From positions 1-64,000 of the forward strand of contig JAGFNJ010000001.1 in the NCBI GenBank assembly GCA_017592775.1: a stretch of 64,000 bases of DNA, read 5' to 3'. How positions within the stretch are numbered: position 1 is the stretch's first letter; every line of letters begins with the position of its first letter. Below, one piece after another: positions 26,789-53,953 of the stretch. A program made the position numbers and the translations under genes. The DNA is from Candidatus Accumulibacter conexus. GTDB taxonomy: Bacteria > Pseudomonadota > Gammaproteobacteria > Burkholderiales > Rhodocyclaceae. The notes beneath the pieces are model-generated. The model saw nothing but the letters and a program-made list of their open reading frames with translations. It ran no database searches and was not told the origin of the DNA.

Positions 26789-28729
26789 ATGTGCGGCATT
26801 ACCGGAATTTTCGATACCCGTAGCCAGCGCGAAATTGATCGTGCGGTGCTTGCCCGGATGAACGAATCGCAGCACCATCGCGGCCCGGATGAGGGTGGCC
26901 TGCACATCGAGCCCGGGCTTGGGCTCGGTCACCGGCGGCTGTCGATCATCGACCTGTCGACGGGGCAGCAGCCGCTCTACAACGAGGACGAGAGCGTCTG
27001 TGTGGTCTTCAACGGCGAGATCTACAACTACCAGGAGTTGATCCCGGAACTGCTGGCGCTCGGTCACCGATTCCATACGCGCAGCGATACCGAAGTCATC
27101 GTGCACGCCTGGGAGTCCTGGGGCGAGGACTGCGTGCGCCGCTTTCGCGGCATGTTCGCCTTCGCGCTCTGGGATCGCAACCGCCAGACGCTCTTTCTGG
27201 CGCGCGACCGGCTGGCGGTCAAGCCGCTGTACTATGCGCTCCTGCCCGACGGAACCTTCCTCTTCGGCTCCGAGCTCAAGTCGCTGCTGGCGCATGGCGG
27301 CCTGGCGCGCGACATCGACCCGCTGGCGGTCGAGGAATACTTCGCCCTCGGTTATGTCGCCGAGCCGCGAACGATCTTCCGCCAGGCAAGGAAGCTGCCG
27401 CCGGCACACACGCTGACCCTGCGCCGGGGAATGCCGCTGGCCGAGCCGAAGGAGTACTGGGACGTGCGCTTCAGTCTCGACAGCCGCATCTCGCTGGCTG
27501 ATGCCTGTGCGCAGCTCGACGAACGGCTCGGCGAGTCGATTCGCCTGCGCATGATCGCCGAAGTGCCGCTTGGTGCCTTTCTCTCCGGAGGGGTCGATTC
27601 GAGTGCCGTCGTCGCCCTGATGGCGGGTCTGTCGTCGGCACCGGTGAACACCTGCTCGATCGCTTTCGATGACCCCGCCTTCAACGAAGCCGCCTTTGCG
27701 CAGAAGGTTGCCGACCGCTACCGGACCAACCATCACTGTGACCTCGTCGCCAGCGATGACTTCGACCTGATCGATACGCTGGCCCGGCTGTACGACGAGC
27801 CGTATGCCGACAGCTCGGCGATTCCCACCTACCGCGTTTGCCAGCTGGCGCGCCAGCATGTGACGGTGGCGCTTTCCGGCGACGGTGGCGACGAGACCTT
27901 TGGCGGCTACCGCCGTTACCGCCTGCACCTGATGGAAGAGCGTCTGCGCACGGCGCTGCCCTATGGGGTGCGGCGGCCGCTCTTCGGCCTGCTTGGCCGG
28001 GCCTACCCGAAGGCCGACTGGGCGCCCCGCATGTTTCGCGCCAAGACCACCTTCGAGGGCATGGCCAGAACGACCGTCGGCGGCTATTTCCACGCCATGT
28101 CGATCCTGCGTGATCCGATGCGCCGCGAGCTGTTCACCGATCGCTTCCGCCGCGAGGCCGGCGGCTACAGCGCGCAGGAGGTCTTTCGCCGGCACGCGCA
28201 GCGCGCCGGTACCGAAGATCCGCTGGCCCTGATCCAGTACCTCGATCTCAAGACATACCTCGTCGGCGACATCAACACCAAGGTGGACCGTGCCAGCATG
28301 GCGCATTCGCTCGAAGTCCGCGAGCCGCTGATGGACCACGAACTGGTCGAGTGGATGGCGACTCTGCCCTCTTCGCTGAAGGTGCGCGGCCAGGAGGGGA
28401 AGTTTCTGCTGAAGGAAGCCATGAAGCCGCGCCTGCCGCAGGACATCCTGTTCCGGCCCAAGATGGGTTTCGCCGTGCCGCTCGCGCGCTGGTTCCGCGG
28501 CCCGCTGCGGGAACGCGTGCAGCAGGCCGTGCTCGGTCCGCGCCTGGCGGCCACCGGCTGGTTCAACCCCGTCTACCTGCGGCATCTGATCGAAGCGCAC
28601 CAGTCTGGCGCAAGGGACTACAGTGCGCCCCTGTGGACGATCCTGATGTTCGAGGCTTTTCTGCGCAACGTCATGGACCCGCCGGCCGAGCATCCCGCTG
28701 CGGTTTCCGTGGTCGACGCATCGCGATGA
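26789..28729 (+). CDS. XrtA-system asparagine-synthase-like amidotransferase 1
   Basis: The 646-residue protein is a class II glutamine amidotransferase fused to an asparagine-synthetase domain. The chain begins MCGITGIF, leaving the nucleophilic Cys at the mature N-terminus, with RGPDEGG and FNGEIYNYQEL in the glutaminase domain. The ATP-pyrophosphatase loop FLSGGVDSSAVVALM and VALSGDGGDETFGGYRRY lie in the C-terminal half. Members of this exosortase-locus family are expected to amidate a carboxylate other than free aspartate, most likely on the sugar or its substituent. Its stop overlaps the following glycosyltransferase start (ATGA). Confidence 0.9.
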   Translation: MCGITGIFDTRSQREIDRAVLARMNESQHHRGPDEGGLHIEPGLGLGHRRLSIIDLSTGQQPLYNEDESVCVVFNGEIYNYQELIPELLALGHRFHTRSDTEVIVHAWESWGEDCVRRFRGMFAFALWDRNRQTLFLARDRLAVKPLYYALLPDGTFLFGSELKSLLAHGGLARDIDPLAVEEYFALGYVAEPRTIFRQARKLPPAHTLTLRRGMPLAEPKEYWDVRFSLDSRISLADACAQLDERLGESIRLRMIAEVPLGAFLSGGVDSSAVVALMAGLSSAPVNTCSIAFDDPAFNEAAFAQKVADRYRTNHHCDLVASDDFDLIDTLARLYDEPYADSSAIPTYRVCQLARQHVTVALSGDGGDETFGGYRRYRLHLMEERLRTALPYGVRRPLFGLLGRAYPKADWAPRMFRAKTTFEGMARTTVGGYFHAMSILRDPMRRELFTDRFRREAGGYSAQEVFRRHAQRAGTEDPLALIQYLDLKTYLVGDINTKVDRASMAHSLEVREPLMDHELVEWMATLPSSLKVRGQEGKFLLKEAMKPRLPQDILFRPKMGFAVPLARWFRGPLRERVQQAVLGPRLAATGWFNPVYLRHLIEAHQSGARDYSAPLWTILMFEAFLRNVMDPPAEHPAAVSVVDASR

Positions 28730-29937
28730 GCCTGCGCATCCTGCACGTCCTCGACCACTCGTTGCCGCTGCACAGCGGCTACAGTTTTCGCACGCTGGCC
28801 ATCCTGCGCGGGCAGCACGCGCTTGGCTGGCAGACGGTGCATCTGACGACGCCCAAGCAGGGCGCCAGCGATGCCCTGTGCGAGGAGGTCGACGGCTGGA
28901 CGTTCCACCGCACGCCGAGCGCGCCGGGCTGCGGCCTGCTGCGGCAGATGCGGCTGACTGCGGCGCGCCTGCAGCAAGTGGTCAGTGCCACCGCGCCGGA
29001 CCTGATCCACGCCCACTCGCCGGTCCTCAACGCCCTGCCGAGCCTTTGGGTCGGGCGGCGCCAGCGGCTGCCCGTGGTCTACGAAATGCGCGCCTCGTGG
29101 GAGGATGCGGCGGTCGATCACGGGACGACGCGTGCCGGCAGCCTGCGCTACCGTGCATCGCGGGCACTCGAGAGCTTCGCCCTGCGGCAGGCCGACGAGG
29201 TGACGACGATCTGTCAGGGACTGCACGCAGACATCGCCGTCCGCGGCATCGCGCCGGAGCGCATCACGGTGATCCCGAACGCGGTCGATGTCGAGCTGTT
29301 TCGCCTTGACGCGGAACCGGACTCCGCCTTGCGGCGGTCGCTCGGACTCGACGGCGCGACGGTCGTCGGTTTCGCTGGTTCGTTCTACGGCTATGAAGGG
29401 CTCGACCTGCTGCTCGAAGCGGCCCGCTTGCTGCTGCCCCGCCATCCGCAACTGCGTGTGTTGCTGGTCGGTGGCGGGCCGCAGGAAAGCAGCCTGCGGG
29501 CGCAGGCGACAGCGGCCGGCATCGCGCAGCACGTCATCTTCACCGGTCGGGTGCCGCATGCGGACGTGCAACGTTACTATGGACTGATCGACGTCCTCGC
29601 CTACCCGCGCCTGCCGATCCGGCTGACCGAACTGGTGACGCCGCTGAAGCCGCTCGAGGCGATGGCGCAGGGGCGGATGCTGGTCGCTTCCGACGTTGGC
29701 GGCCACCGCGAGCTGATCCGGCACGGCGAGACCGGCTTCCTCTTCCGCGCCGGGGATGCCGGTTCCCTGGCAGCGGCCATCGACGAGTTGCTCGCCAGGC
29801 GCCAGCGGTGGCCGGACATCCGCCAGCAGGCGCGCCGCTTCGTCGAGGTCGAGCGAACCTGGGCGACCAGCGTGGCGCGTTATCGCGAGGTCTACCGGCG
29901 GGCTCTGGCCCGCCATGGCCGCAGCCCATCCATCTGA
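28726..29937 (+). CDS. Exosortase A-associated GT4 glycosyltransferase (Daro_2409-like)
   Basis: The 403-residue glycosyltransferase begins MSLRILHVLDHSLPLHSGYS, characteristic of the third exosortase A sugar transferase family. It continues with HAHSPVLNALPSLWVGRR, VIPNAVDVELF, VGFAGSFYGYEGLDLLLEA and the donor-binding PLEAMAQGRMLVASDVGGHRE region. It lies between the two amidotransferase genes, translationally coupled to the first and 15 bp before the second. This alternating arrangement is typical of the family's loci. Confidence 0.9.
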   Translation: MSLRILHVLDHSLPLHSGYSFRTLAILRGQHALGWQTVHLTTPKQGASDALCEEVDGWTFHRTPSAPGCGLLRQMRLTAARLQQVVSATAPDLIHAHSPVLNALPSLWVGRRQRLPVVYEMRASWEDAAVDHGTTRAGSLRYRASRALESFALRQADEVTTICQGLHADIAVRGIAPERITVIPNAVDVELFRLDAEPDSALRRSLGLDGATVVGFAGSFYGYEGLDLLLEAARLLLPRHPQLRVLLVGGGPQESSLRAQATAAGIAQHVIFTGRVPHADVQRYYGLIDVLAYPRLPIRLTELVTPLKPLEAMAQGRMLVASDVGGHRELIRHGETGFLFRAGDAGSLAAAIDELLARRQRWPDIRQQARRFVEVERTWATSVARYREVYRRALARHGRSPSI

Positions 29938-29952: not shown

Positions 29953-31878
29953 GTGTGTGGCATTCACGGCATCTATCGTTTTGACGGGTTGAGCGTCGAG
30001 CCCGGGCTTCTCTCCGCCATGGGTGATCGCACCCGGCATCGTGGGCCCGACGACGAAGGCAGCCATCTCGATGGTCCCTGCGGCATCGCCATGCGTCGCC
30101 TGTCGATCATCGACCTTGCCGGTGGCCATCAGCCGCTGTCGAACGCCGACGGCAGCCTGTGGCTGGTATGCAACGGCGAGATCTACAACTACCGCGAACT
30201 GCGACGCGAGCTGCAGGAGAAGGGCTACCGCTTCAAGACTGGGTCCGACTGCGAAGTGCTCATCCACCTCTATGACGCCGAGGGTGACGCGTTCATCCAG
30301 CGGCTGAACGGGATGTTCGACTTCGCCCTCTGGGACGCGCGCCGGCACCGGCTGTTGATCGGGCGTGACCGACTGGGCGTGAAGCCCCTGTATGTCCTGC
30401 ACGACTGGCAGCGCCTGGCCTTTGCCAGCGAAGCCAAGGCTCTGCTGGCGTTGCCCGGCATCAGCGCCGAACTCGATCGCGAGGTGCTGGCCGACTACCT
30501 GCACCTCGGTTACGTTGCCGCGCCCGGCTGCATCTTCAAGGGCATCCGCAAGCTGCCGCCGGCGACACTGCTGGCGGTCGAGGCGGGTCAGGTGCGCGAG
30601 TGGCGCTATTGGCGCCTGCCCGACCGCTGTACGCCGGGCGTATCCGAAAGTGAATGGTGCGACCGCGTGCGGCTGCAGCTCGACGAGTCGGTGCGCATGC
30701 AGATGGTCAGCGACGTGCCGATCGGCGCCTTCCTGTCAGGGGGAGTCGATTCGAGTGCCGTCGTCGGCCTGATGGCCCGCCATTCGGAGCAACCGATCCG
30801 GACCTACGCCATCGGCTTTGCCGGCGGCGAGGCCGAGGCACTGTACAACGAGCTTCCCTACGCGCGCCGGGTGGCCGAACTCTTTGCCACCGAGCACCGC
30901 GAGATCCTCGTCCGCCCCGATGTCGTCTCGCTGCTGCCGAAACTCCTGTGGCACATGGACGAACCATTGTCCGATACCGCCTTCATCACCACCTTCCTCG
31001 TTTCCGAGTTCGCGCGCGAGGATGTCAAGGTGATCCTGTCCGGCGTCGGCGGCGACGAACTGTTCGGCGGCTACCGGCGCTACCTCGGCGGGCACTATGC
31101 CAGGCGCTATCGCAAACTGCCGGCGTGGCTGCGCAGCCTGGCAGGTCTGGCTGCTGCACGCTTGCCCGCCGACCGGCACGCCGGTCTGCTCAACCGGCTG
31201 CGCCTGGCGAAGGGCTTCATCGCCTCGGCCGGGATGAGTGCCGACGAACGCTATCGCAGCTACCTGCAGGTTCTCGACCGGCAGGCCGTGGCGACGCTGT
31301 TGATCCAGCCACCCGGCCACGCCTCGGATCCGCTGACGCGCGCCTTCGCCGCGGCGGGCAATGACGATGAGCTGAACCGCATGTTTGCCGTCGATGCGGA
31401 GACGCAGTTGCCGGACGATCTGCTGCTGCTGACCGACAAGATGAGCATGGCGGTTTCGCTCGAGTGCCGGGTGCCGTTGCTGGATCACCAACTCGTCGAA
31501 CTGGCGGCAGCGATCCCGGCTTCGGTCAAAGTGCGCGATGGCCGGCTGAAGAGCCTGCTGAAGCTGGCTCTGACCGACCTGCTGCCCGACGACATCCTGA
31601 ATCGCCAGAAGCGCGGGTTCGGTACGCCGATGGGTGCCTGGCTGAAGCGCGAACTGGCGCCGCTCCTGCGCCGTCTGCTGGCCCCGGCGGTGGTCGACGC
31701 GCGCGGCCTTTTTCATTCCGCGCTGGTGGCACGGCTGATCGCCGACCATGACGCCAACCGGATCGACGGCACCGATATCCTGTTGGCGCTGCTCAACCTC
31801 GAGGTGTGGAGCCGCATCTACCTCGACCGGCGTGACCCGGCCGATGTTGCGGAAGAACTCAGGAGCTACGTGGCATGA
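29953..31878 (+). CDS. XrtA-system asparagine-synthase-like amidotransferase 2
   Basis: This 641-residue protein is a paralogue of the protein at 26789. Translation must start at GTG 29953, because the next codon TGT encodes the essential N-terminal Cys (MCGIHGIYRF). The glutaminase motifs RHRGPDDEGS and CNGEIYNYREL and the synthetase motifs FLSGGVDSSAVVGLM and LSGVGGDELFGGYRRY are intact. Two non-identical amidotransferases in one locus imply either two target carboxylates or sequential steps. Its stop overlaps the next ATG (ATGA). Confidence 0.9.
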   Translation: MCGIHGIYRFDGLSVEPGLLSAMGDRTRHRGPDDEGSHLDGPCGIAMRRLSIIDLAGGHQPLSNADGSLWLVCNGEIYNYRELRRELQEKGYRFKTGSDCEVLIHLYDAEGDAFIQRLNGMFDFALWDARRHRLLIGRDRLGVKPLYVLHDWQRLAFASEAKALLALPGISAELDREVLADYLHLGYVAAPGCIFKGIRKLPPATLLAVEAGQVREWRYWRLPDRCTPGVSESEWCDRVRLQLDESVRMQMVSDVPIGAFLSGGVDSSAVVGLMARHSEQPIRTYAIGFAGGEAEALYNELPYARRVAELFATEHREILVRPDVVSLLPKLLWHMDEPLSDTAFITTFLVSEFAREDVKVILSGVGGDELFGGYRRYLGGHYARRYRKLPAWLRSLAGLAAARLPADRHAGLLNRLRLAKGFIASAGMSADERYRSYLQVLDRQAVATLLIQPPGHASDPLTRAFAAAGNDDELNRMFAVDAETQLPDDLLLLTDKMSMAVSLECRVPLLDHQLVELAAAIPASVKVRDGRLKSLLKLALTDLLPDDILNRQKRGFGTPMGAWLKRELAPLLRRLLAPAVVDARGLFHSALVARLIADHDANRIDGTDILLALLNLEVWSRIYLDRRDPADVAEELRSYVA

Positions 31879-33089
31879 ACATTCTCTACATCTGCCACCG
31901 CTTCCCCTTTCCGCCGAAGCGCGGCGGCAAGATTCGTCCCTTCAACATGATCCGCCATCTCTCCGCCTGCGGCCACCGGGTCACCGTCTGCTCGCTCGCC
32001 CGTTCGGCGGCGGAGGCCGAGGAAGGGCAGGGGATTGCCGCCCATTGCGAACGCTTTGCCATGGGGATCGTTTCCGAACCCGTGCAGACGCTGCGGATGG
32101 TCGCGCGTCTGCCGCTGACGACGCCCTCGTCGATGGGCTATTTCCATTCGCCCGCGCTGCAGCGGCAGGTTGATCACCTGCTGCAGGCGGAAAAGTGGGA
32201 CCTGATCTTCGTGCACTGCTCGTCGGTCGCACAGTACGTCGAACGTGTGCGGACGGTGCCGAAGATACTCGACTTTGGCGACATGGACTCGCAGAAGTGG
32301 CTTGAGTATGCCAACTACAAGCCCTTTCCACTGTCGCTCGGCTATCGTCTCGAAGGCACCAAGGTGCTTGCCGCCGAGAAGCGCCTGGCGAGGCTGTTCG
32401 ATCTATGTACGGCGACGACGCGCGCCGAATGGCAGACGCTCGAGGACTACCGCACGGGTGTGGCGACGGACTGGTTTCCCAACGGAGTCGATGCCGACTT
32501 CTTCTCGCCGACAGCGGACGCCTGCGATCCCGACACTCTGAGTTTCATCGGCCGCATGGACTACTATCCGAACCAGGAGTGCATGGCGCGCTTCTGCGCG
32601 CAGATCTGGCCGCTGCTGCGGGCACGTCGTCCGCAGCTCAAGTTGTTGATCATCGGTGCCGACCCGTCGCCCGAAATGCGCCGCCTGGGCGAGTTGCCCG
32701 GTGTGACCGTCACCGGTTCGGTGCCCGACGTGCGTCCCTTCGTCCGGCAGTCGGCGCTGATGGTCGCGCCGCTGAACATCGCTCGCGGAACGCAGAACAA
32801 GATTCTCGAGGCGATGGCGATGGGTGTACCGGTGGTCACCAGCCGGGTTGCCGCAGGCGGCGTCGACGCCGAGCCCGTGAAGCATTTCCTTGTTGCCGAC
32901 ACGCCTCAGGAATATTCTGACGCCATTCTGGGGGTGCTGCAAAACCCGGTGGAAAGGCAGAGATTGGCCGTCGCCGGTCGGCAGCGGATGCTCAGCAACC
33001 ACGCCTGGTCGCATTCGATGGCACGGCTCGACGGGATCATCGAGCGCTGCCTCAGGGATTTTTCGCACAGAAAAGGAAAAAGCGCATGA
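31875..33089 (+). CDS. Exosortase A-locus glycosyltransferase (stp1 type)
   Basis: The 404-residue GT-B enzyme begins MNILYICHRFPFPPKRGGKI, the hallmark of the first PEP-CTERM-locus sugar transferase family. It contains LDFGDMDSQKWLEYA and the C-terminal donor region LMVAPLNIARGTQNKILEAM. It is coupled upstream to amidotransferase 2 and downstream (ATGA, 33086-33089) to the dehydrogenase gene, so at least asnB2-GT-algD are made from one message. Confidence 0.9.
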   Translation: MNILYICHRFPFPPKRGGKIRPFNMIRHLSACGHRVTVCSLARSAAEAEEGQGIAAHCERFAMGIVSEPVQTLRMVARLPLTTPSSMGYFHSPALQRQVDHLLQAEKWDLIFVHCSSVAQYVERVRTVPKILDFGDMDSQKWLEYANYKPFPLSLGYRLEGTKVLAAEKRLARLFDLCTATTRAEWQTLEDYRTGVATDWFPNGVDADFFSPTADACDPDTLSFIGRMDYYPNQECMARFCAQIWPLLRARRPQLKLLIIGADPSPEMRRLGELPGVTVTGSVPDVRPFVRQSALMVAPLNIARGTQNKILEAMAMGVPVVTSRVAAGGVDAEPVKHFLVADTPQEYSDAILGVLQNPVERQRLAVAGRQRMLSNHAWSHSMARLDGIIERCLRDFSHRKGKSA

Positions 33090-34402
33090 AAATCAGCATC
33101 TTCGGTCTCGGTTACGTGGGCGCGGTATCGCTTGCGTGTCTCTCGCGCGACGGCCACGAGGTGATCGGAGTCGACATCGATGCCAGCAAGCTTGATCTGA
33201 TCGTTGCCGGCAAGACGCCGGTGGTCGAGGAGGGCATGGTCGATCTGATGGCGCTCGCCGCGAGCAGTGGCCGCGTCTCGGTGACCACCGATGCGCAACG
33301 CGCGGTGCAGGACAGCGAACTCTCGCTGGTCTGCGTCGGCACGCCTTCGGCGGCCAATGGCAGCCAGGACCAGGGCGCGATCCTGCGGTTGGCGGAGGAG
33401 ATGGGCCTTGCCATCGCCGGCAAGAGCACGCCGCACATCGTCGTCTTCCGGTCGACGCTCGTCCCCGGCACCGTCGAAGACATCCTGCGCCCGATCATCG
33501 AAGCGAAATCGGGCAAGAAGGACGGCGAGGGCTTCTTCCTCTGTTTCCAGCCGGAGTTCCTGCGTGAGGGATCGTCGATCCGCGACTATGACAAGCCGCC
33601 GTTCACCGTCGTCGGGGCCAACCACGCTTATCCGATCGATCGCCTGCGCGAGCTGTTCGGCAAGCTGCCCTGTCGCTTCATCCCAACCTCGGTGCGCTCG
33701 GCGGAGATGATGAAGTACTGCTGCAACAATTTCCATGCCCTCAAGATCACCTTCGCCAACGAGACCGCCCGTCTGTGCGATGCGCTCGGCGTCGACCCCT
33801 TCGAGGTCATGAACCTGGTCTGCCAGGATACCCAGCTCAACATCTCGACCGCCTATCTGCGGCCCGGCTTTGCCTTTGGCGGCTCCTGCCTGCCGAAGGA
33901 CCTGCGGGCGACCACCTATCTGGCGAAGATGCACGATGTCGAGGTGCCGATGCTGGCCGGGATCATGCAGTCGAACCGCGATCACCTCGCCCTGGCGTTG
34001 CGCAAGCTGCTTGCCCTCGGCCGGCGGAAGATCGGCTTCATCGGCCTGTCGTTCAAGACCGGCACCGACGACCTGCGCGAGAGCCCGCTGGTGACGCTCG
34101 CCGAACAACTCATCGGCAAAGGCATGCAACTGGCCATCTACGATCCCGAGGTCCATCTCGCACGGCTGCTCGGTGCCAACCGCAGCTTCATCGAACGCCA
34201 CCTGCCGCACATCGGCGACATGATGCGTTCGGAAATAGAGGAGGTGATCGCCGAGTCGGAAGTCCTGGTGCTCGGCCTTGGCGGGCAGGAAGTCGCCGAC
34301 AGCCTGGCGCGTTGCTGTCGCCCCGAGCAGATCGTTCTCGATCTGGTTGGACTGCGCGACCGGCAGGCGATCGGCGCCGTCGTCGAGGGACTCTGCTGGT
34401 AG
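33086..34402 (+). CDS. algD: UDP/GDP-sugar 6-dehydrogenase, most like GDP-mannose dehydrogenase
   Basis: The 438-residue NAD-dependent four-electron dehydrogenase has an N-terminal Rossmann motif ISIFGLGYVGAVSLACL and FRSTLVPGTVEDIL. The catalytic Cys lies in LRPGFAFGGSCLPKDLRA, preceded by VCQDTQLNIS. The combination GK(S/T)P(I/V)VE near residue 45, CQD-x-x-LN, and PGFAFGGSCLPKD is that of AlgD rather than of Ugd. The expected product is GDP-mannuronate, an activated uronic acid for the polymer. Assignment to GDP-mannose over UDP-glucose or UDP-HexNAc rests on these motifs and should be treated as likely, not certain. Confidence 0.82.
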   Translation: MKISIFGLGYVGAVSLACLSRDGHEVIGVDIDASKLDLIVAGKTPVVEEGMVDLMALAASSGRVSVTTDAQRAVQDSELSLVCVGTPSAANGSQDQGAILRLAEEMGLAIAGKSTPHIVVFRSTLVPGTVEDILRPIIEAKSGKKDGEGFFLCFQPEFLREGSSIRDYDKPPFTVVGANHAYPIDRLRELFGKLPCRFIPTSVRSAEMMKYCCNNFHALKITFANETARLCDALGVDPFEVMNLVCQDTQLNISTAYLRPGFAFGGSCLPKDLRATTYLAKMHDVEVPMLAGIMQSNRDHLALALRKLLALGRRKIGFIGLSFKTGTDDLRESPLVTLAEQLIGKGMQLAIYDPEVHLARLLGANRSFIERHLPHIGDMMRSEIEEVIAESEVLVLGLGGQEVADSLARCCRPEQIVLDLVGLRDRQAIGAVVEGLCW

Positions 34403-34442: not shown

Positions 34443-35567
34443 ATGGCGAGTGCAGGCACGGTGTTGTCCGGCGGTGGCGCGCAATGGCCAGCGGTCTGCG
34501 TCGTCGGCCCGCTGCCGCCGCCATCGGGCGGCATGGCCAACCAGTGCGAACAGCTCGTGCGCCTGCTGCGCGCTGACGGAGTGAGCGTGGAACTGGTGTG
34601 CACCAACCCGCCCTATCGACCGCGCTGGATCGGCAGCCTGCCGGTGCTGCGCGCCGGATTTCGTCTGCTTCCCTATCTGCTGCACCTGTGGCGGGCGATT
34701 GGCAGGGCAGCGGTGGTGCACGTCCTGGCCAACTCCGGCTGGGCCTGGCATCTCTTCGCCGCGCCCGCGATCGTCATCGCTCGCTGGCGCGATACCCCGG
34801 TGATCATCAACTACCGGGGTGGCAATGCAGACAGCTTTCTTGCCCGTGCTCCGCGGCACGTCCGCCGCCTCCTGGCCGCGGGCTCGCTGCGCGTCACGCC
34901 GTCGGTCTTCCTGCAACGGGTCTTCGCCAAGTACGGCCTGAGCGCCGAGGTGGTCCCCAACATCATCGACCTGTCGCGTTTCGCACCGGTGCCGCAACGA
35001 TCCTTCGGCGACGCGCCCCATCTGGTGGTGACACGCAATCTGGAGGAGATCTACGACATTCCGACGGCGCTGCGGGCCTTTGTCCGCATCCGCACCGTCT
35101 TTCCGCAGGCGCGGTTGACGGTCGCCGGCAGTGGTCCGGAAGGCGAGCGTCTGCAGGCCCTGGCGGGCGAACTTGGCCTGCGGGACAGCGTCCGCTTCGC
35201 CGGCCGCATCGCCAACGTTGCCATGCCGGCGATCTACGCTGCTGCCGACTGCATGCTCAACCCGAGCACCGTCGACAACATGCCGAATTCAATCCTCGAG
35301 GCCTTTGCCAGTGGCGTTCCGGTTGTCAGTACCGATGCCGGCGGCATCCCGGACCTCGTCCGCGACGGGGTCTCCGGCTTGCTGGTGGCGGTCGGTGACG
35401 AGCAGGCCATGGCGCGTGCGGCGCTGCGCGTGTTGCAGAATGGCGAACTGGCGACTGCCTTGCGGCAGGCCGGACTCGAGCAGGCGGCATCCTATGCCTG
35501 GCCGCAGGTCCGTGCCCGATGGCTGGCCGCCTACAGCCGGGTTGCCGGCGGGAGGAGTGCGTCATGA
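34443..35567 (+). CDS. GT4-family glycosyltransferase
   Basis: The 374-residue GT-B glycosyltransferase has an N-terminal acceptor domain with VVGPLPPPSGGMANQCEQLV. The C-terminal donor domain has LTVAGSGPEGERLQALAGEL, AADCMLNPSTVDNMPNSILE and AFASGVPVVSTDAGGIPDLV. The Glu residues of NSILEAFASG follow the GT4 E-x7-E pattern. It marks the transition from the conserved exosortase A genes to the more variable part of the locus. It begins 40 bp after algD, and its stop overlaps the next ATG. Confidence 0.88.
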   Translation: MASAGTVLSGGGAQWPAVCVVGPLPPPSGGMANQCEQLVRLLRADGVSVELVCTNPPYRPRWIGSLPVLRAGFRLLPYLLHLWRAIGRAAVVHVLANSGWAWHLFAAPAIVIARWRDTPVIINYRGGNADSFLARAPRHVRRLLAAGSLRVTPSVFLQRVFAKYGLSAEVVPNIIDLSRFAPVPQRSFGDAPHLVVTRNLEEIYDIPTALRAFVRIRTVFPQARLTVAGSGPEGERLQALAGELGLRDSVRFAGRIANVAMPAIYAAADCMLNPSTVDNMPNSILEAFASGVPVVSTDAGGIPDLVRDGVSGLLVAVGDEQAMARAALRVLQNGELATALRQAGLEQAASYAWPQVRARWLAAYSRVAGGRSAS

Positions 35568-36943
35568 ATCCATACACCGCGCTCTGTTCGGGCCTGTTCT
35601 TTCCCCTGCATGAGCGCCTCAAGGGGCACGATTCGGTCGCCTTGCGCAAACGGCTCGAGGCAAGCCAGTGGTGGTCGGCCGAGCAGCTCGGCGAGCAGCA
35701 GGCCCGGCGCCTGCGCGAGTTCCTGCAACGGATCGGCCGTGACGTGCCCTATTACCGCGACCTCTTCCGGGCGGTCGGCTTCGACGCCGCTGGCGTGCGT
35801 TCAACCGACGCCCTGCGCGCCCTGCCGCTGCTCGGCAAGCCCGAGATCCGGGCGAATCTGGAGCGGCTGCAGGCGGCCGGACACGGTCCGCTGACGCGTT
35901 ACAACACCGGTGGCTCGTCGGGTGAACCACTGATCTTCTTCATGGGCAAGGAGCGCAAGAGCCACGACGTCGCGGCGAAATGGCGGGCCACACGCTGGTG
36001 GGGCGTCGACATCGGCGACCGCGAACTGGTGGTCTGGGGCAGCCCGATCGAACTCGGCGCGCAGGATCGGCTTCGCCGCCTGCGCGACGGACTGCTGCGC
36101 AGCACGCTCCTGCCGGCCTTCGAGATGTCGCCGGCCAACCTCGACCGTTTCGTGGCAACGATCGTCGACTGCCGCCCGGCGATGTTGTTTGGCTATCCGT
36201 CGAGCCTCTCGTTGATCGCGCGCCACGCGCAGCGGCAGCAACGGGACATGCGGGGCCTCGGAATCCGGGTTGCGTTCGTCACCTCCGAGAAGCTGTACGA
36301 CGAGCAGCGAACGCTGATCAGCGAGGTCTTTGGCTGTCCGGTGGCCAATGGCTACGGTGCCCGCGATGCCGGGTTCATCGCCCACGAGTGCCCGCACGGC
36401 AGCCTGCACATCAGTGCCGAGGACATCGTCGTCGAGACGCTGCGCCCGGACGGACAGCCTGCCGCACCCGGTGAAGCCGGTGAGATCGTCGTCACGCACA
36501 TGGCGACCGGGGATTTCCCCTTTGTCCGCTACCGTACCGGCGACGTTGGCATTCTCGGCAGCAGGCCCTGCGCCTGCGGCCGCGGTCTGCCGGTACTGGA
36601 GGAAGTTCAGGGACGGACGACCGACTTCGTCGTCGCCCGCGACGGTACCGTAATGCATGGCTTGGCGCTGATCTACACGGTCAGGGACTTGCCGGGGGTC
36701 GAGCGTTTCCGGATCGAGCAGATGTCGCTCGACCTGACGGTCGTCCGCATCGTTGCCGGACCGGCCTTCGACGCTGCGGCCGAGGAGCGGATCGTGCGCG
36801 ATTTCAAGGCGCGCCTCGGCGATGCCGTCGCCATCCGCGTCGAGCGTGTGCCGGTCATCGCCGCCGAGTCTTCGGGCAAGTTCCGCTACGTGGTCAGCCA
36901 GGTCAAGGCTCCCGGCAGCGACAGGGGCGCTGCGCATGCGTGA
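35564..36943 (+). CDS. CapK/PaaK-like adenylate-forming enzyme
   Basis: The 459-residue protein resembles phenylacetate-CoA ligase and CapK of capsule loci. It has the AMP-binding P-loop-like YNTGGSSGEPLIFFMGK near 120, NGYGARDAGFIAHECPHG near 265, and FPFVRYRTGDVGIL followed by a CxCGRG segment (CACGRGLPVLEE). The enzyme should activate a carboxylic acid as an acyl-adenylate. In EPS loci such proteins are suspected to activate an acyl group for decoration, but no CapK substrate is established. It overlaps both neighbours (ATGA upstream, 8 bp with the ligase downstream). Confidence 0.85.
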   Translation: MNPYTALCSGLFFPLHERLKGHDSVALRKRLEASQWWSAEQLGEQQARRLREFLQRIGRDVPYYRDLFRAVGFDAAGVRSTDALRALPLLGKPEIRANLERLQAAGHGPLTRYNTGGSSGEPLIFFMGKERKSHDVAAKWRATRWWGVDIGDRELVVWGSPIELGAQDRLRRLRDGLLRSTLLPAFEMSPANLDRFVATIVDCRPAMLFGYPSSLSLIARHAQRQQRDMRGLGIRVAFVTSEKLYDEQRTLISEVFGCPVANGYGARDAGFIAHECPHGSLHISAEDIVVETLRPDGQPAAPGEAGEIVVTHMATGDFPFVRYRTGDVGILGSRPCACGRGLPVLEEVQGRTTDFVVARDGTVMHGLALIYTVRDLPGVERFRIEQMSLDLTVVRIVAGPAFDAAAEERIVRDFKARLGDAVAIRVERVPVIAAESSGKFRYVVSQVKAPGSDRGAAHA

Positions 36944-38264
36944 CCTGCTGCTGGTCGGGATCTTTCTCGCCGTCCTGCCCTTTGCCTTGCGCCATACGTG
37001 GATTGGTGTCCTGTTATGGACCTGGCTGAGCATCATGAATCCGCACCGCCTGACCTTTGGCTTTGCCCAGGATGCTCCCTTCGCAGCGGCGGCTGCCGGA
37101 GTCATCTTCCTGTCGCTGTTCATTACCCGCGACAAGCTGCGGATGCCGTGGTCGCCGCCAGTCATCGTGCTGTTTCTTTTTGTCTTCTGGATGTGCATCA
37201 CCACCGCTTTCGCGCTGAGTACGGAGGACTCCTGGCACCAGCTCAACAAGGTGCTCAAGATACAGGTGGTGACGGCCATTGCACTGATGGCCCTGCACGA
37301 GCGCCGGCACATCGAACTGTTCATCTGGGTGAACGCGCTTTCGATCGGCTTCTATGGCTTCAAGGGCGGGCTATACACGCTTACCACCGGTGGCGGCGGC
37401 AGGGTCTGGGGTCCGGCGGGGACCTTCATCACCGACAACAACCATCTCGCTGTGGCAGTCATCATGGTGATTCCATTGCTCAACTACCTGCGTACCGTCG
37501 TCACCCACAAGCACCTGCGCCTCGGTCTGCTGCTGCTGATGGTGTTCTGTGCTTTTTCCGCCTTGGGGTCACAGTCGCGCGGAGCACTCCTGGCGATCGC
37601 TGCCATGACCATGGTCCTGTGGGCGCGGTCGCCGAACAAGGTGGTGACGGGCGTGATTCTCGCAGTGATCGGCGTCGCCCTGATCGCGTTCATGCCTTCA
37701 GCCTGGGAGGATCGCATGAGCACGATTTCCACCTACGAAAGCGATGGTTCCGCCATGGGCCGGATCCAGACCTGGCAGTTCTGCGCCAACCTGGCTGCGG
37801 ACCGGCTGACCGGTGGTGGTTTCTCGATCTACAACGTTCAGAACCTGGCGATATGGGGGGCCCCCGGCGCGCGCAGTGTGCACGTTGCACACAGTATCTA
37901 TTTCTCGGTGCTGGGAGAGCACGGCTATGTTGGCTTGCTGCTCTTCCTGCTGCTCTGGTGGCTGGCGATGCGCCAGGCCGCACGCCTGCGCAAGACCAGC
38001 AAGGGCAAACCAGAGCTGGCCTGGGTGTTTCATCTGGCAGGAATGTGCCAGGTCTCTCTCGTCGGCTACTTCGTTGGTGGCGCGTTCCTGCAACTCGCCT
38101 ACTTCGATCTCCCGTACAACATTCTCGTCATCCTGGTCGTCACGCAGCGCTGGCTGGATGCGGGTGGCTGGAAAGGGGACGCAGCGGGGACCGTGGCCTC
38201 TGCCGAGAGCGCCCAACAGCGACCGTCGTCATCATCGGCGACGCAGCAGGTGGCACCATCATGA
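36936..38264 (+). CDS. Exosortase A-associated putative O-glycosylation ligase (Wzy/WaaL-like)
   Basis: The 442-residue polytopic membrane protein begins MRDLLLVGIFLAVLPFALRH and contains the family-typical MNPHRLTFGFAQ. It has a large periplasmic loop (about 245-320: YESDGSAMGRIQTWQF, VHVAHSIYFSVLGEHGYVGL) with the conserved Arg and His expected of O-antigen ligase-fold enzymes. The role is polymerisation or transfer of the lipid-linked glycan, possibly onto exosortase-processed proteins. The gene overlaps the CapK-like gene and is coupled to the deacetylase (ATGA at 38261). Confidence 0.88.
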   Translation: MRDLLLVGIFLAVLPFALRHTWIGVLLWTWLSIMNPHRLTFGFAQDAPFAAAAAGVIFLSLFITRDKLRMPWSPPVIVLFLFVFWMCITTAFALSTEDSWHQLNKVLKIQVVTAIALMALHERRHIELFIWVNALSIGFYGFKGGLYTLTTGGGGRVWGPAGTFITDNNHLAVAVIMVIPLLNYLRTVVTHKHLRLGLLLLMVFCAFSALGSQSRGALLAIAAMTMVLWARSPNKVVTGVILAVIGVALIAFMPSAWEDRMSTISTYESDGSAMGRIQTWQFCANLAADRLTGGGFSIYNVQNLAIWGAPGARSVHVAHSIYFSVLGEHGYVGLLLFLLLWWLAMRQAARLRKTSKGKPELAWVFHLAGMCQVSLVGYFVGGAFLQLAYFDLPYNILVILVVTQRWLDAGGWKGDAAGTVASAESAQQRPSSSSATQQVAPS

Positions 38265-39235
38265 TCAGGACCCTGGCCAATCTGCTGTCGCCAGCGGGAA
38301 AGAATGGACGTCTCTCCATTCTCATCTTCCACCGGGTCGTTGCCCAGCGGGATCCGGTTTTCGACTGGCATCCGGACGCAATCGCGTTCGAGCGGAGGAT
38401 GCAGTGGCTACGCACCTGGTTTCACGTTCTACCGTTGGACGAAGCCGTTCTTCGGCTGCGCGAGCAGTCCCTGCCGGCGCGGGCGGCGGCGGTCAGCTTC
38501 GATGACGGCTATGCCGACAACTATCATGTCGCGCTGCCGATTCTGCAGCGATTGGGCGTTCCAGCGACCTTCTTCGTCGCCACTGGCTACATCAACGGCG
38601 GCCGCATGTGGAACGACACGATCACCGAGGCCGTCAGGCACTGCGGCAAGGCCACTCTTGACCTTTCCGGTGCAGGGCTTGGCACACACGACATCAGTTC
38701 GGCGGAGGCCATGCGTCGGACGACCGCTGTCCTGCTCGACGGCCTCAAGTACAAGGCTGCACGCGAGCGCAGCCAGGCGGCCGACTACGTGGCGCAAGTG
38801 GCTGGCTGCCGGCTGCCTGCGGACCTGATGATGACCTCGGAGCAAGTGCGGGCGATGCGCCGGGCGGGGATGCTGATCGGTGCCCACACCGTGACGCATC
38901 CGATCCTGGCACGCCTCGACCCGGATGAGGCGCGCCGCGAAGTCGTCAATAGCAGGGATCATCTGGAGGATCTCCTGCAGGACCGCGTCGGGCTGTTCGC
39001 CTACCCCAATGGCCGCCCGTCGGTGGACTACCGCGCAGAGGATGCCGAGAGCGTAAGGGGTCTTGGCTTCGACGCGGCCGTGACGACTGCATGGGGCGTC
39101 GCCGATGCGGGTAGCGACCGCATGCAGTTGCCTCGATTCACCCCCTGGGATGGTACGCGCTTGCGCTTCGGGGTACGACTGCTGAGAAACCTGCTCGACG
39201 ATTCCCGGCGGGCAGGCACGCAGATTGCCAGCTGA
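38261..39235 (+). CDS. Polysaccharide deacetylase (NodB-fold), second in the locus
   Basis: The 324-residue protein has ILIFHRVVAQRDPVFDW at the N-terminus, the catalytic Asp-Asp motif AVSFDDGYADNYHVALP at about 75, GVPATFFVATGYING, and the metal-binding IGAHTVTHPILARLD. A C-terminal FAYPNGRPSVDY completes the CE4 pattern. It has no signal peptide. It is distinct from the XrtA-type deacetylase at 21482 and more like the YadE/PgaB deacetylase domain group. It is translationally coupled to the O-ligase. Confidence 0.88.
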   Translation: MIRTLANLLSPAGKNGRLSILIFHRVVAQRDPVFDWHPDAIAFERRMQWLRTWFHVLPLDEAVLRLREQSLPARAAAVSFDDGYADNYHVALPILQRLGVPATFFVATGYINGGRMWNDTITEAVRHCGKATLDLSGAGLGTHDISSAEAMRRTTAVLLDGLKYKAARERSQAADYVAQVAGCRLPADLMMTSEQVRAMRRAGMLIGAHTVTHPILARLDPDEARREVVNSRDHLEDLLQDRVGLFAYPNGRPSVDYRAEDAESVRGLGFDAAVTTAWGVADAGSDRMQLPRFTPWDGTRLRFGVRLLRNLLDDSRRAGTQIAS

Positions 39236-42286: not shown

Positions 42287-43443
42287 GGGACGACAAGACG
42301 ACAGCGGTGATCGTTGGCGGCGGATTGAATGCCCTGGGTATCGTGCGCAGCCTGGCCGCACGGGGAATCCCGATGATCCTGGTAGCCGCGGGTAGCGGTC
42401 CCGCCTGCCACAGTCGGCATCCACGGCACCATGTCGTCAGCGCGACGGAAGGCGAAGCCCTGATCGCCGCCCTCAAGTCGATCGCCGCAACCCTGCCGGC
42501 AAGACCGGTCCTTTTCCTGACCGAAGAGAAATCGGTCACATCGGTCTCCGAACGTCGGCAGGAGGTTGTCGCCGATTACCTGATCACCCTGCCCGACGAG
42601 GCGAAATTGGCGAGTCTGATGCACAAGGAAGGGTTCCAGCAACTGGCGATCGGTTGTGGGAGTCCTGTTCCGGCAGCGGTCCGTCTCCAGCGGGAGAGTG
42701 ATCTGGAACGGCTCTGCGCGTTGCGTTTCCCCTGTGTTCTGAAGCCGGCGTTCAAGCACTACGGCTACGGCGACCGGTTCAAGAAGGCGTACGTGGTGGC
42801 ATCGGTCGCCGAAGCCGCGGAGCGCTATCGCGAGATCGCACCGGTGCTCGCCGATCTGATTGTCCAGGAGTGGATTGAAGGGGACGATTCCGAGATCTAT
42901 TTCTGTCTGCAGTATGTGGCCGCCGATCAGCGTACGGTGGCCTCCTTCGTCGGCCGCAAGCTGCGGTCATGGCCACCACGGATCGGCGGCACTGCGAGTT
43001 GCATCTCGGCTCCGGAGTGCCATGACGAACTGAGCGACATGACCTCGATCTTCTTCCGCCAGGTCGGCTTCGTGGGTATGGGCAGCATGGAGTACAAGCG
43101 CGACTCCCGTGACGGCCGCTTCTACATGGTGGAGCCGACCGTCGGCCGCACAGATTTCCAGCAAGAGGTCGCCACGGTCAATGGCGTGAACATCCCGTTC
43201 GCAGCGTACTGCGTGGAAACCGGGGCTGCGCTGCCGTCGTGGCAGTATCTGCAACCACCGAAGATCTGGCGCGACCCCGTCGTTGACCGTTGGTCGGCCG
43301 AAGAACAGGGCAGCGCCAGCGCTCTGCCTGCGGCCGACATCGTCGATGCCTATTGGCGGGCCAATGATCCGATGCCGTGGTGCGCACTGATCTGGGAGCG
43401 AGTGCGCGGGCGCTGCCAAGTGCTGTTGTCGGGGCGGAGGTAG
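42283..43443 (+). CDS. ATP-grasp carboxylate-amine ligase-like protein
   Basis: The 386-residue protein has a pre-ATP-grasp N-terminal domain (VIVGGGLNALGIVRSLAARG) followed by the ATP-grasp fold. FPCVLKPAFKHYGYGDRFKKAY carries the ATP-binding Lys, LIVQEWIEGDDSEIYFCLQY the hinge, and GMGSMEYKRDSRDGRFYMVE then PTVGRT the metal-binding Glu and Asn/Thr-side region. ATP-grasp ligases join a carboxylate to an amine or thiol through an acylphosphate. In this setting, attachment of an amino acid or amine to a sugar carboxyl is plausible but unproven. It lies between a flippase and an aminotransferase gene. Confidence 0.82.
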   Translation: MRDDKTTAVIVGGGLNALGIVRSLAARGIPMILVAAGSGPACHSRHPRHHVVSATEGEALIAALKSIAATLPARPVLFLTEEKSVTSVSERRQEVVADYLITLPDEAKLASLMHKEGFQQLAIGCGSPVPAAVRLQRESDLERLCALRFPCVLKPAFKHYGYGDRFKKAYVVASVAEAAERYREIAPVLADLIVQEWIEGDDSEIYFCLQYVAADQRTVASFVGRKLRSWPPRIGGTASCISAPECHDELSDMTSIFFRQVGFVGMGSMEYKRDSRDGRFYMVEPTVGRTDFQQEVATVNGVNIPFAAYCVETGAALPSWQYLQPPKIWRDPVVDRWSAEEQGSASALPAADIVDAYWRANDPMPWCALIWERVRGRCQVLLSGRR

Positions 43444-48106: not shown

Positions 48107-48112
48107 CCCGCG

Positions 48113-49600: not shown

Positions 49601-49616
49601 CCATCTATTACACGGG

Positions 49617-49633: not shown

Positions 49634-49649
49634 AAGCCGGTGCAACACG

Positions 49650-52180: not shown

Positions 52181-53953
52181 TCAGGCTGCGTTGGCGTTGC
52201 GGCGGAGCCATTGCTCGAGCATGGTGAGGATCCATACCATCTCTCCATAGTAGCCCGGGTGCTGCGGGAGATGCTCGCGCAGAAGCCTGTCGACGAAGTC
52301 GTGGCGGACGATCCCCCGCGTTGCCAGCGTGTCGAGCGAGTCCCGGGCCAGTTCGAGCAGCGCTGGATTGCGCGTTGTCCAGACACCGAACGGCAGCCCG
52401 AAGCCCTTTTTCTTCTTGTTGATGATTTCGTCGGGCAGGAAGCCGCGCAAGGCTTCCTTGAAGAACCAGCGCAGCTTGAAGCGCCGGAGCTTCCAGTCCG
52501 CTGGCAGCGTCATCGAGAAGTCGGTCAGGCGATCGCTGAGCAGCGGGTAGGCGACGGCGATCCCGGCCATCTGCACCGCCCCGCGGACCTTCGGCAGGTC
52601 GCTGTCGGCGAGCGTGTAGCGCCAGTCGTAGGCCAGCATGCGGTTGATCAGGCTGCCGGCCTGGCATTCGTCCCAGGTTGCCTGCATGTGTCGGGCCGGT
52701 TCGTGCACATCGATCCCGGTCAGGAAATCGGCGCTGAGCACCTGCGCCGGATCGAGTTGCATGAGCAGGTTGAAGCTCTGCAGCCGGGCCGGCAGTGTCA
52801 CCCTTGAGTGACGCACGTAGCCGGTCGCCTGCTTCAGGCCGGGGATTCGGCGCAAGGGGCTGCCGTCTGCGCACATCGGTTCGATCGCCTGCCTGATCGC
52901 CTGCGGTACGCTGTGGTAGAACTCGAACAGCCGCTGCATGGCGTAACGGGAGTTGCCACCGAACAACTCGTCGCCGCCGTCGCCCGCCAGCATCCTGCTG
53001 CAGCCATCGCTCTTGGCGACCTGGGCGCAGTAGTAGGCCGGCAGAGCCGACGAGTTCCCGAACGGCTGATCGTGGTGCTGGGCCACGGCCGGGATGCTCG
53101 CCAATAGGTCGGATGGCGTCACGTAGTACTCGTGGTGCTCGCAGCCAAAGTGCCTGGCGGCGATGCGCGCATACTCCATCTCGTCGTAACCTTCGGCGTC
53201 AAAGCCAATCGAATACACCGGCGCCGCCGCGCCGGTGATCTGGCAGAGCATGCCGGCGACCGTCGAGCTGTCGGTGCCGCCCGAGAGAAAGGCGCCGACC
53301 CGTTGCTGCCCGGCGAGCTGTTCGGCAACGCTGTCGCGGATCAGGCTGCGGAACGAGTCGCGTGCGGCATCGAAGGAAGGGCGACGTTGCTCGTCGAAGC
53401 GCAAGGGCCAGTGGCGAATCTCGCGCACGCCCTGGTCATCGACGAGCAGCGCATGCGCTGCCGGCAAGCGCCGTACCTGGCGGAAGATCGTCCGCGGCGC
53501 CGGGATCATGTGAAAGTACAGGTAATCGAAGATTGCTTGCGGGTCGAGTTGCTGGTCGTGCGCCGCGATGCAGTCGGCGCGGTCGGCGAACGCCAGGGTC
53601 TTGCCGTCGGTGAAATAGCACAGGGTCTCGATGGCGAAGCGGTCGACGGCGAGGAAGGTCGACCGACGCACGGTGTCGACGATGACCAGCGCGTAGCCAC
53701 CGCTGATGTGCGAGGTGAGATCGACACCATGTTTGTGCCAACCCGACAGCATTGCGGCAGCAAGACCTGCGGGTGGCGCCGTTTTGGCATCGCTGTGCGC
53801 GCTGTAGCCAGGCGAGCCGATCAGCGAGCAGATGGCGCGATCGTCGCGCGCCACGTGCTCGCCCTGCAGCGCGATCGACCGCATCAGTTCCGGAGACGTT
53901 GCGGAGCCGAGAAGTTCGGTCAGATCCAGGTGGCCGGATAGTCTTGCTTTCAT
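52181..53953 (-). CDS. Asparagine-synthase-like protein lacking the glutaminase cysteine
   Basis: The 590-residue protein begins MKARLSGHLDLTELL. Unlike the paralogues at 26789 and 29953 it has neither the N-terminal Met-Cys-Gly nor the NGEIYN motif. About the first 60 residues are degenerate, although the end of the glutaminase domain (HISGGYALVIVDTVRRSTFL, DRFAIETLCYF) is recognisable. The synthetase domain is complete: FLSGGTDSSTVAGML, MLAGDGGDELFGGNSRY and NKKKKGFGLPFGVW. It may use free ammonia or another amine as nucleophile, as beta-lactam-synthetase-like relatives do, or receive ammonia from a partner. Confidence 0.85.
   Translation of the reverse strand: MKARLSGHLDLTELLGSATSPELMRSIALQGEHVARDDRAICSLIGSPGYSAHSDAKTAPPAGLAAAMLSGWHKHGVDLTSHISGGYALVIVDTVRRSTFLAVDRFAIETLCYFTDGKTLAFADRADCIAAHDQQLDPQAIFDYLYFHMIPAPRTIFRQVRRLPAAHALLVDDQGVREIRHWPLRFDEQRRPSFDAARDSFRSLIRDSVAEQLAGQQRVGAFLSGGTDSSTVAGMLCQITGAAAPVYSIGFDAEGYDEMEYARIAARHFGCEHHEYYVTPSDLLASIPAVAQHHDQPFGNSSALPAYYCAQVAKSDGCSRMLAGDGGDELFGGNSRYAMQRLFEFYHSVPQAIRQAIEPMCADGSPLRRIPGLKQATGYVRHSRVTLPARLQSFNLLMQLDPAQVLSADFLTGIDVHEPARHMQATWDECQAGSLINRMLAYDWRYTLADSDLPKVRGAVQMAGIAVAYPLLSDRLTDFSMTLPADWKLRRFKLRWFFKEALRGFLPDEIINKKKKGFGLPFGVWTTRNPALLELARDSLDTLATRGIVRHDFVDRLLREHLPQHPGYYGEMVWILTMLEQWLRRNANAA

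Follow-up and report, generated by a model that had tools for sequence, protein, structure and literature searches.

Uronic acid amidotransferases of the WbpS/WbqG type, collected in the family TIGR03108, are known from Pseudomonas aeruginosa O6, Escherichia coli O121, Porphyromonas gingivalis (PGN_1234) and Helicobacter pullorum. Such enzymes are described as needed for uronamides (PMC7468200, PMC6025236), and N-acetylgalactosaminuronamide of P. aeruginosa is attributed to WbpO, WbpP and WbpS (PMC6025236). In the Wbp/Vim pathway of type IX secretion (PMC7468200, PMC13086638) the linking sugar of P. gingivalis is a 2-N-seryl-3-N-acetylglucuronamide, WbpS corresponds to eps_aminotran_1, and the TIGR03019-related VimA sets which amino acid, serine or glycine, goes on the sugar in P. 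gingivalis and Tannerella forsythia (PMC7468200). A third point of comparison is provided by the exosortase A (XrtA)/PEP-CTERM exopolysaccharide (EPS) clusters of floc and biofilm formers (Rubrivivax psc1, Thauera MZ1T, Zoogloea, Aquincola). Here we analyze a 64,000-nucleotide stretch of Candidatus Accumulibacter conexus (assembly GCA_017592775.1, contig JAGFNJ010000001.1, positions 1 to 64,000; hereafter the window), which in profile scans opens with housekeeping genes and continues with an XrtA locus coding for three asparagine synthase-like proteins, named AsnB1, AsnB2 and AsnB3 in this work.

In the literature on such clusters, three wbpS-like genes of Rubrivivax psc1, two of them with transposon hits, are reported together with a mention of uronamides (PMC3684757), two asparagine synthase genes are spoken of for EPS clusters of this kind (PMC9012009), 12 insertions in an exosortase-associated amidotransferase were recovered among colony-form mutants (PMC11340318), and asnB or asnH is cited as required for floc formation (PMC7662799). 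Floc formation by wastewater bacteria has been connected with PEP-CTERM proteins and with these EPS clusters, and granules of Ca. Accumulibacter are reported to contain PEP-CTERM proteins (PMC9012009, PMC12019908). The target to which exosortases attach PEP-CTERM proteins counted as an unidentified compound at the time of PMC7468200, where it is suggested that exosortase loci may make a compound similar to the P. gingivalis linking sugar. The general idea of uronamides and amino-acyl sugars in these loci is already in print as a hypothesis, in PMC7468200 and, for the wbpS genes, in PMC3684757; an earlier note, made from the sequence of the window, treated this chemistry as not known to its author and missed these proposals. 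A literature search mainly of open-access journals listed no report of AlgD-linked amidotransferases in exosortase loci or of the AsnB3 clade, and no paper joining Accumulibacter, exopolysaccharide and exosortase; one listed paper, on Geobacter (PMC7962754), contains both AlgD and exosortase, and by title and opening of the abstract neither of the two papers that mention mannuronamide concerns its biosynthesis.

The window stretch is an XrtA/PEP-CTERM EPS locus, and its gene assembly is not due to chance: the set XrtA (TIGR03109), TIGR03006 (deacetylase), TIGR03019 (FemAB-like), TIGR03027 (export protein, at 14151), TIGR03007 (chain-length determinant), TIGR03015 and TIGR03016 is present with each member above its curated cut-off, as are TIGR03018 (kinase), TIGR03088, TIGR03108, TIGR04063 and TIGR03087. 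Its core gene set is similar to that of the floc and biofilm formers, which likewise have several asparagine synthase genes. The earlier note had assigned an AlgD-like dehydrogenase, the three AsnB-like proteins, an ATP-grasp ligase, a CapK/PaaK-like enzyme and a FemAB-like transferase to a single polymer chemistry; only part of these amide- and acyl-forming genes form one group, as AsnB1 mostly occurs without AlgD, the glutaminase of AsnB3 is ruined, the ATP-grasp gene is local and the CapK gene is not tied to AlgD. On balance, we consider it probable that the locus makes an XrtA/PEP-CTERM surface polysaccharide in which at least one, and probably two, uronic acids occur as primary amides, by way of an AlgD/AsnB2/glycosyltransferase stp1 block, an AsnB1/TviB/TviC route, the FemAB-like protein and AsnB3. 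For these we infer the substrates, the products and the level of amidation (nucleotide sugar, lipid-linked unit or polymer).

To compare the three AsnB-like proteins we used the 40 genomes with XrtA above its cut-off among 150 genomes of the order, and fetched the loci from these; counts for stp1, AlgD, CapK, ATP-grasp and DegT across the 40 refer to the fetched regions. In the searches of whole genomes, scoring was limited to the top 8, 4 or 3 candidates of each genome, depending on the search, and absences in them are not proof. In a tree of 88 rows obtained with a short search, AsnB1 (35 sequences), AsnB2 (8) and AsnB3 (33) were each set apart from all other rows by a branch of support 100. 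The tree was computed after removal of one AsnB1 (G052, 458 residues at a contig end; G-numbers denote genomes, L-numbers loci and C-numbers contigs), of a 1036-residue protein (G118_C95_274951) and of open frames of up to 400 residues, including the fragmentary AsnB1 of G126, and it does not contain the matches of 532-556 bits in G118 C90 and G016 C17. Of the residues that make up the glutaminase site in this family, Cys2, Arg31, Asn75 and Asp100 are conserved in 35/35 AsnB1 and 8/8 AsnB2 proteins. Close to the motifs of the synthetase site, the separate clades have different invariant residues. The separate clades and the residue differences rule out the three proteins as interchangeable amidotransferases. 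Judged by their sequences, they look like three different things rather than one set of amide enzymes, in which AsnB1 and AsnB3 would be a core pair and AsnB2 part of an AlgD-linked accessory block. If correct, this sorting would tie genes to candidate products, namely asnB2 to a mannuronamide, asnB1 with tviB/tviC to an N-acetylhexosaminuronamide, and asnB3 to the acceptor.

Additional AsnB-like genes were seen beyond these clades. Three more lie at C6 51204-73542 (L017, L018) of the genome to which the window belongs (4.87 Mb, 102 contigs), two of them in tandem and near epimerase-like frames, perhaps as a second amide-rich locus, and AsnB-like frames of 1086 and 936 residues in G020 (C1:2063631-2066447) and G095 (C2:191974-194760) match TIGR03108 in separate pieces.

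AsnB2 is linked to AlgD. Its gene is followed by stp1, whose frame overlaps those of both AsnB2 and AlgD by coordinates. The product of the 33086 gene matches the GDP-mannose dehydrogenase structure 1mfz over its full length (462.6 bits, residues 1-438; the next match, UDP-glucose dehydrogenase, reaches 207.9 bits), and GFAFGGSCLPKD is unchanged in the alignment, with the motif GGSCLPKD, which we take to be the surroundings of the catalytic cysteine; the uronate-forming dehydrogenase proposed in the earlier note is borne out. A gene for GDP-mannose supply is present in the same genome (GDP-mannose pyrophosphorylase/isomerase, TIGR01479, 672 bits). The enzyme resembles AlgD of alginate synthesis in its full-length match and motif, but differs in adjoining stp1 and AsnB2 in an XrtA locus; the scanned genes of the window include no alginate polymerase gene, and the rest of the genome was not searched for one.

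Across the 40 XrtA genomes, AsnB2 is found in eight and the AlgD type in nine, with all eight AsnB2 genomes carrying AlgD; stp1 has matches of at least 67% in exactly the nine AlgD genomes, other matches being at most 36%. A profile search of 399 genomes of the order, with three candidates scored per genome, recovered AsnB2 in 13, of which eight were known from the XrtA set and the five others all have AsnB2, stp1 and AlgD in a row, so that unlike the core gene set shared with the floc and biofilm formers this block is rare. AlgD is present in 13/13 of these genomes, on the same contig in 12; in the remaining one (G100) a contig ends at AsnB2, and AlgD is carried by a different contig. Named genomes gave 11 further AsnB2 loci (54-85% identity), eight with the AlgD type (59-88% identity, apart from L108) and three (L109, L112, L116) on contigs that end too early to show it. 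In total the AlgD type accompanies AsnB2 at 21/24 loci, the other three being undecided because their contigs end, as against 2/69 other AsnB loci of the same scan, a control count that is a lower bound given the many short contigs among the 69. The three genes stay together while their place in the locus changes: the block precedes XrtA in G613 and G428, follows AsnB1 in the window, and lies about 15 kb from AsnB1 in G525. Among named genomes, the AsnB2 closest to that of the window comes from Ca. Accumulibacter regalis (85% identity), where the genes between WecB and the second deacetylase are arranged identically, in a search that may omit the window's own or very near records.

Because of this genomic linkage we name mannuronate as the substrate, and the best reading is that AsnB2 amidates it. 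AlgD would convert GDP-mannose to GDP-mannuronate; AsnB2 would adenylate the mannuronate carboxylate with ATP and convert it to the amide with glutamine-derived ammonia; and stp1 would add mannuronate or mannuronamide to the lipid-linked unit as it grows. AsnB2 differs from the WbpS-type systems in belonging to a separate clade (540 against the TIGR03108 cut-off of 816.9 bits) and in being paired with AlgD rather than with an N-acetylhexosamine dehydrogenase. The linkage at 21/24 loci fits the earlier suggestion that uronic acids are converted to amides, as distinct from its further premise of one shared chemistry. Amidation removes charge from a polymer, and polymer charge may matter in practice for flocs and granules.

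Several observations weigh against this reading. One genome, G062, has AlgD and stp1 without AsnB2; at L116 the 2.7 kb left after AsnB2 hold neither stp1 nor AlgD; and at L108, from the cultured Pelomonas sp. KK5, the AlgD has an identity of only 47% and is separated from AsnB2 by about 8.8 kb. Kinship weakens the linkage statistics: G613 and G428 are near copies with AsnB2 96% identical, the AsnB1 tree offers only two (supported branches) to four independent contrasts for AsnB2/AlgD, and a sign test does not reach significance (in 200 random pairings, AlgD goes in the same direction in 1.9/2 and never in the opposite one). AsnB2 genomes may have been missed with three candidates per genome. 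Finally, AsnB2 passes the plain asparagine synthase model TIGR01536, so that its sequence leaves room for an asparagine-making role.

The G062 arrangement, in which mannuronate is usable without AsnB2, also favors the alternative that AlgD serves an unamidated mannuronate and AsnB2 acts on another carboxylate built by the same glycosyltransferase branch. We regard this as unlikely, given that AsnB2 was never seen without AlgD on contigs of sufficient length (21/21), which is the direction expected if the AlgD product is its substrate. That AsnB1 and AsnB2 are ordinary or specialized asparagine synthetases, for instance for asparagine-rich PEP-CTERM proteins, with a merely regulatory reason for their placement, draws on their scores of about 490-500 bits against TIGR01536 (cut-off 267); the four other AsnB relatives of the same genome that were scanned pass this model as well, and it does not discriminate. 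Against PRK09431, the model of AsnB proper, the two score 280 and 305 bits, far under its cut-off of 499, and asparagine supply would leave unexplained both the AsnB2-stp1-AlgD linkage and the separate clades with their different fixed residues; we hold it to be very unlikely.

AsnB1 is the WbpS-like protein of the locus, with the glutaminase and synthetase residues kept. Proteins above the TIGR03108 cut-off are found in 35 of the 40 XrtA genomes, with fragmentary copies in two more (G052, G126), whereas AsnB2 and AsnB3 (256.6 bits) fail this cut-off and are not filed in the family. We rejected AlgD as the source of its substrate: 27 of the 35 genomes with full AsnB1 are without AsnB2, and in the fetched regions just one of the 27 (G062) has AlgD. 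Nucleotide-sugar dehydrogenases in general say little, as they score above cut-off in 40/40 XrtA genomes and also in 13/14 controls. On contig C46 of the same genome, outside the window, we found a TviB-type dehydrogenase (PRK15182) and a TviC-type epimerase, both scoring below their cut-offs (491 against 592 bits and 450 against 760 bits), directly after prsK, prsR, prsT and the XrtA-type first glycosyltransferase; this pair is of the WbpO/WbpP type and constitutes a further likeness to the WbpS-type systems. TviB matches of at least 480 bits occur in 35 XrtA genomes, with a TviC match of at least 60% within 900 bases in 25/35 and PrsR and PrsK within the fetched 7 kb in 10/35, while of the 15 genomes without XrtA whose TviB matches score best, four have such a TviC (two more at 58-59%) and none has the Prs genes. 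TviB also stands beside XrtA in G020, and four of the 11 AsnB2 loci from named genomes (L107, L108, L109, L115) have it 26-1147 bases from XrtA.

AsnB1 probably acts on an N-acetylhexosaminuronate from TviB/TviC and not on the AlgD product. Together with this UDP-N-acetylhexosamine dehydrogenase/epimerase pair encoded beside prsKRT it would give an N-acetylhexosaminuronamide, as proposed for WbpO/WbpP/WbpS. Two points count against it: no TviB match of at least 480 bits was found in five of the 40 XrtA genomes (G037, G082, G103, G049, G056), three of them with AsnB1, and TviB is not specific to XrtA, many genomes without XrtA having it. Because G037, G082 and G103 have AsnB1 and lack such a match, the pairing is not universal, and a strict need of AsnB1 for TviB is ruled out.

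The AsnB3 clade lies further from the WbpS-type enzymes and passes no NCBIfam cut-off. The window protein is without the cysteine, arginine and asparagine of the glutamine domain. Throughout the clade cysteine is found at position 2 in 0/33 proteins, 20 having a displaced cysteine in a CGW-like motif and 13 none; in three of the 20 a start codon (one ATG, two TTG) directly precedes the cysteine, and an N-terminal cysteine is possible there. Arg31 and Asn75 are present in 0/33, the NGEIYN motif is cut down to its glycine in 33/33, and the Asp100 column, which is loosely aligned, holds aspartate in 2/33; the ATP/pyrophosphate loop SGG.DS, the motif GDGGDE and lysine 498 are kept in 33/33. AsnB3 should not be called a glutamine amidotransferase, and of the three asparagine synthase-like proteins listed in the earlier note all are present, with this one dropping out of the amidotransferase class.

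Distribution ties AsnB3 to XrtA. With a 12-row profile it scores at least 590 bits in 33/150 genomes of the order (the next score is 452), comprising 33/40 genomes with XrtA and 0/110 of the rest. A sample of 274 genomes drawn from the class (G000 and G049 belong to both samples) gave matches of 584 bits or more in 40, namely 35/51 with XrtA above cut-off and 5/223 without, leaving 16 XrtA genomes of this sample without AsnB3. Fisher tests give about 1e-26 in both sets, on the assumption of independent genomes, which these are not. The five genomes with AsnB3 and no XrtA above cut-off (G193, G201, G339, G396, G413) count against strict linkage; G193 has an XrtA match of 182 bits. In G201 (L209) the AsnB3 contig begins inside AsnB1, and XrtA may simply be unassembled. 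AsnB3 is convergent with the Wzy-like gene or a deacetylase in several loci (e.g. G050, G095, G028, G032, G120, L111, L114). A second deacetylase adjoins AsnB3 in G029 (L097).

The residue pattern, an intact ATP-pyrophosphatase site with a dead glutaminase, would make AsnB3 a synthetase without a working glutaminase, forming an amide or similar bond with free ammonia or an amine other than glutamine-derived ammonia. An AlphaFold2 model (mean predicted local distance difference test score, pLDDT, 85) matched in Foldseek the hydroxyamidotransferase TsnB9 (1e-22), beta-lactam synthetase (3e-20) and E. coli AsnB (8e-19), with E-values that are close. AsnB3 is comparable to the glutaminase-less AsnB relatives, beta-lactam and carbapenam synthetase, in having no cysteine at position 2 and, for beta-lactam synthetase, in the fold match, a predicted likeness in working only: beta-lactam synthetase is 17-18% identical to AsnB3, there is no sequence reason for a lactam, and AsnB3 belongs to a polysaccharide locus. 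A non-catalytic scaffold or regulator would account for the loss of the glutaminase arginine, asparagine and NGEIYN loop in 33/33, yet it accords poorly with the synthetase motifs retained in all 33 and with a model that fits the glutamine-independent beta-lactam synthetase about as well as AsnB; we consider it quite unlikely. In a more specific and highly speculative scheme, to which we give little credence, AsnB3 would be a glutamine-independent amide ligase of exosortase A systems that joins a glycan uronate or other carboxylate to an amine, such as that of an amino-acyl group introduced by FemAB, thereby forming or cross-linking the amine-bearing acceptor for PEP-CTERM loading, with the mannuronamide of AlgD and AsnB2 as a natural polysaccharide sugar in the same loci.

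The FemAB-like transferase lies upstream of the segment 26789-53953 in which the earlier note had placed it, and is a strong TIGR03019 member. This family is above cut-off in 41/150 genomes of the order, 38 of which are among the 40 XrtA genomes. The XrtA-system deacetylase may free an amine to which this transferase attaches an amino acid, as proposed for VimE and VimA, perhaps giving the exosortase A acceptor; amino-acid substituents are plausible by this route, through the relationship to VimA (PMC7468200). By family membership the window resembles the Wbp/Vim pathway in having TIGR03019, a deacetylase and a WbpS-family enzyme beside a sorting transpeptidase, and differs from it in having an exosortase instead of a type IX sortase and an AlgD-based second uronate.

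It is quite possible, if short of probable, that the enzymes mainly serve a single amino-acyl uronamide of this kind, joined by exosortase A to PEP-CTERM proteins, and not a repeating EPS: AsnB1 would form the uronamide, the deacetylase free the amine and FemAB add the amino acid. The joint presence of TIGR03019, TIGR03006, TIGR03108 and XrtA in the window speaks for it, as does the occurrence of TIGR03019 in 38/40 and TIGR03108 in 35/40 XrtA genomes above cut-off. It leaves unexplained, however, the AlgD/AsnB2/stp1 block of 13/399 genomes; of the WbpA, WbpB, WbpE and WbpD set for a 2,3-diamino sugar none was seen in the scan of the window genes, with no search of the whole genome for WbpB, WbpE and WbpD; and WbpS is dispensable for cargo attachment in P. 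gingivalis (PMC13086638). Moreover, G049 and G056 have XrtA and TIGR03019 and no close AsnB1, AsnB3 or TviB match, the amide being dispensable for the exosortase there; these two genomes are natural comparisons for the role of the amide enzymes. We retain the amidated polysaccharide with two uronate routes as the preferred reading.

The two remaining activating enzymes stand apart from the AlgD block. Both family scores of the CapK/PaaK-like adenylate-forming protein are under their cut-offs, and because of this we call it a divergent family member. At about 40% identity or more it is present in 22/40 XrtA genomes, 7/9 with AlgD and 15/31 others, and therefore it is not part of the block; the adenylating enzyme of the earlier note exists in this divergent form, without a tie to AlgD. 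The ATP-grasp ligase survives as a protein with about 20 bits to two PRK12767 models and no Pfam match at 0.001. In the fetched regions, close matches of it and of a DegT aminotransferase occur in one and zero other of the 40 genomes, and both were rejected as members of the conserved set; the single ATP-grasp match (57%, in G049) is truncated where the fetched stretch stops, and G112 has one of 27%. The ATP-grasp gene looks like a local add-on. At 39443-50663 the window holds this gene and the DegT aminotransferase along with methyltransferases, a phosphotransferase/kinase-like protein, two Wzx-type flippases and an FkbM protein, mostly absent from the fetched regions of the XrtA relatives. 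The coordinates of the main features are collected in Table 1.

Table 1. Features of the XrtA locus, with positions in the window and the profile or structural matches that identify them
Feature	Position	Strand	Match
UDP-GlcNAc 2-epimerase (WecB-like)	20286..21464	+	TIGR00236 305 bits, cut-off 210
XrtA-system polysaccharide deacetylase, VimE-like role possible	21425..22342	+	TIGR03006 457.5 bits, cut-off 276
FemAB-like transferase, TIGR03019, VimA-related family	22432..23424	+	514 bits, cut-off 260
Exosortase A (XrtA) with EpsI-like C-terminal domain	23508..25061	+	TIGR03109 357 bits, cut-off 208; TIGR02914 132 bits, cut-off 43
Glycosyltransferase stp2	25141..26709	+	TIGR03088 438.9 bits, cut-off 409; match starts at residue 122 of open frame
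AsnB1, glutamine-type amidotransferase, WbpS-like core enzyme	26789..28729	+	TIGR03108 1086 bits, cut-off 816.9
Glycosyltransferase stp3	28726..29937	+	TIGR04063 628 bits, cut-off 442
AsnB2, glutamine-type amidotransferase, separate clade, proposed mannuronate amidotransferase	29953..31878	+	TIGR01536 491.6 bits; TIGR03108 540.4 bits, under cut-off 816.9
Glycosyltransferase stp1, proposed mannuronate/mannuronamide transferase	31875..33089	+	TIGR03087 490 bits, cut-off 317
AlgD-type GDP-mannose 6-dehydrogenase	33086..34402	+	PDB 1mfz; GGSCLPKD motif kept
CapK/PaaK-like adenylate-forming protein	35564..36943	+	NCBIfam AMP-dependent CoA ligase family 130 bits, cut-off 300; Pfam AMP-binding 27.2, cut-off 29.9
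Wzy-like polymerase/ligase	36753..38264	+	PF19358 and Wzy_C; match starts at residue 62 of open frame
Second polysaccharide deacetylase	38222..39235	+	PF01522 83 bits
ATP-grasp-like protein	42283..43443	+	About 20 bits to two PRK12767 models; no Pfam match at 0.001
AsnB3, AsnB relative with ruined glutaminase, XrtA-associated clade	52181..53953	-	Pfam Asn_synthase 254 bits; GATase_7 from profile position 59 on

At the start of the window, PdxA and RsmA are above their family cut-offs and LptD-like and SurA-like proteins below theirs. Past AsnB3, one open frame at 55500-58442 combines VanZ and Acyl_transf_3 domains, and ARAGORN predicts at 63555-63646 a 92-base tRNA-Thr with the anticodon agt, which is unusual and may be a false call. 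A second exosortase-like gene lies elsewhere in the same genome (C92 9568-10347), with 140 bits to the XrtA model, below its cut-off.

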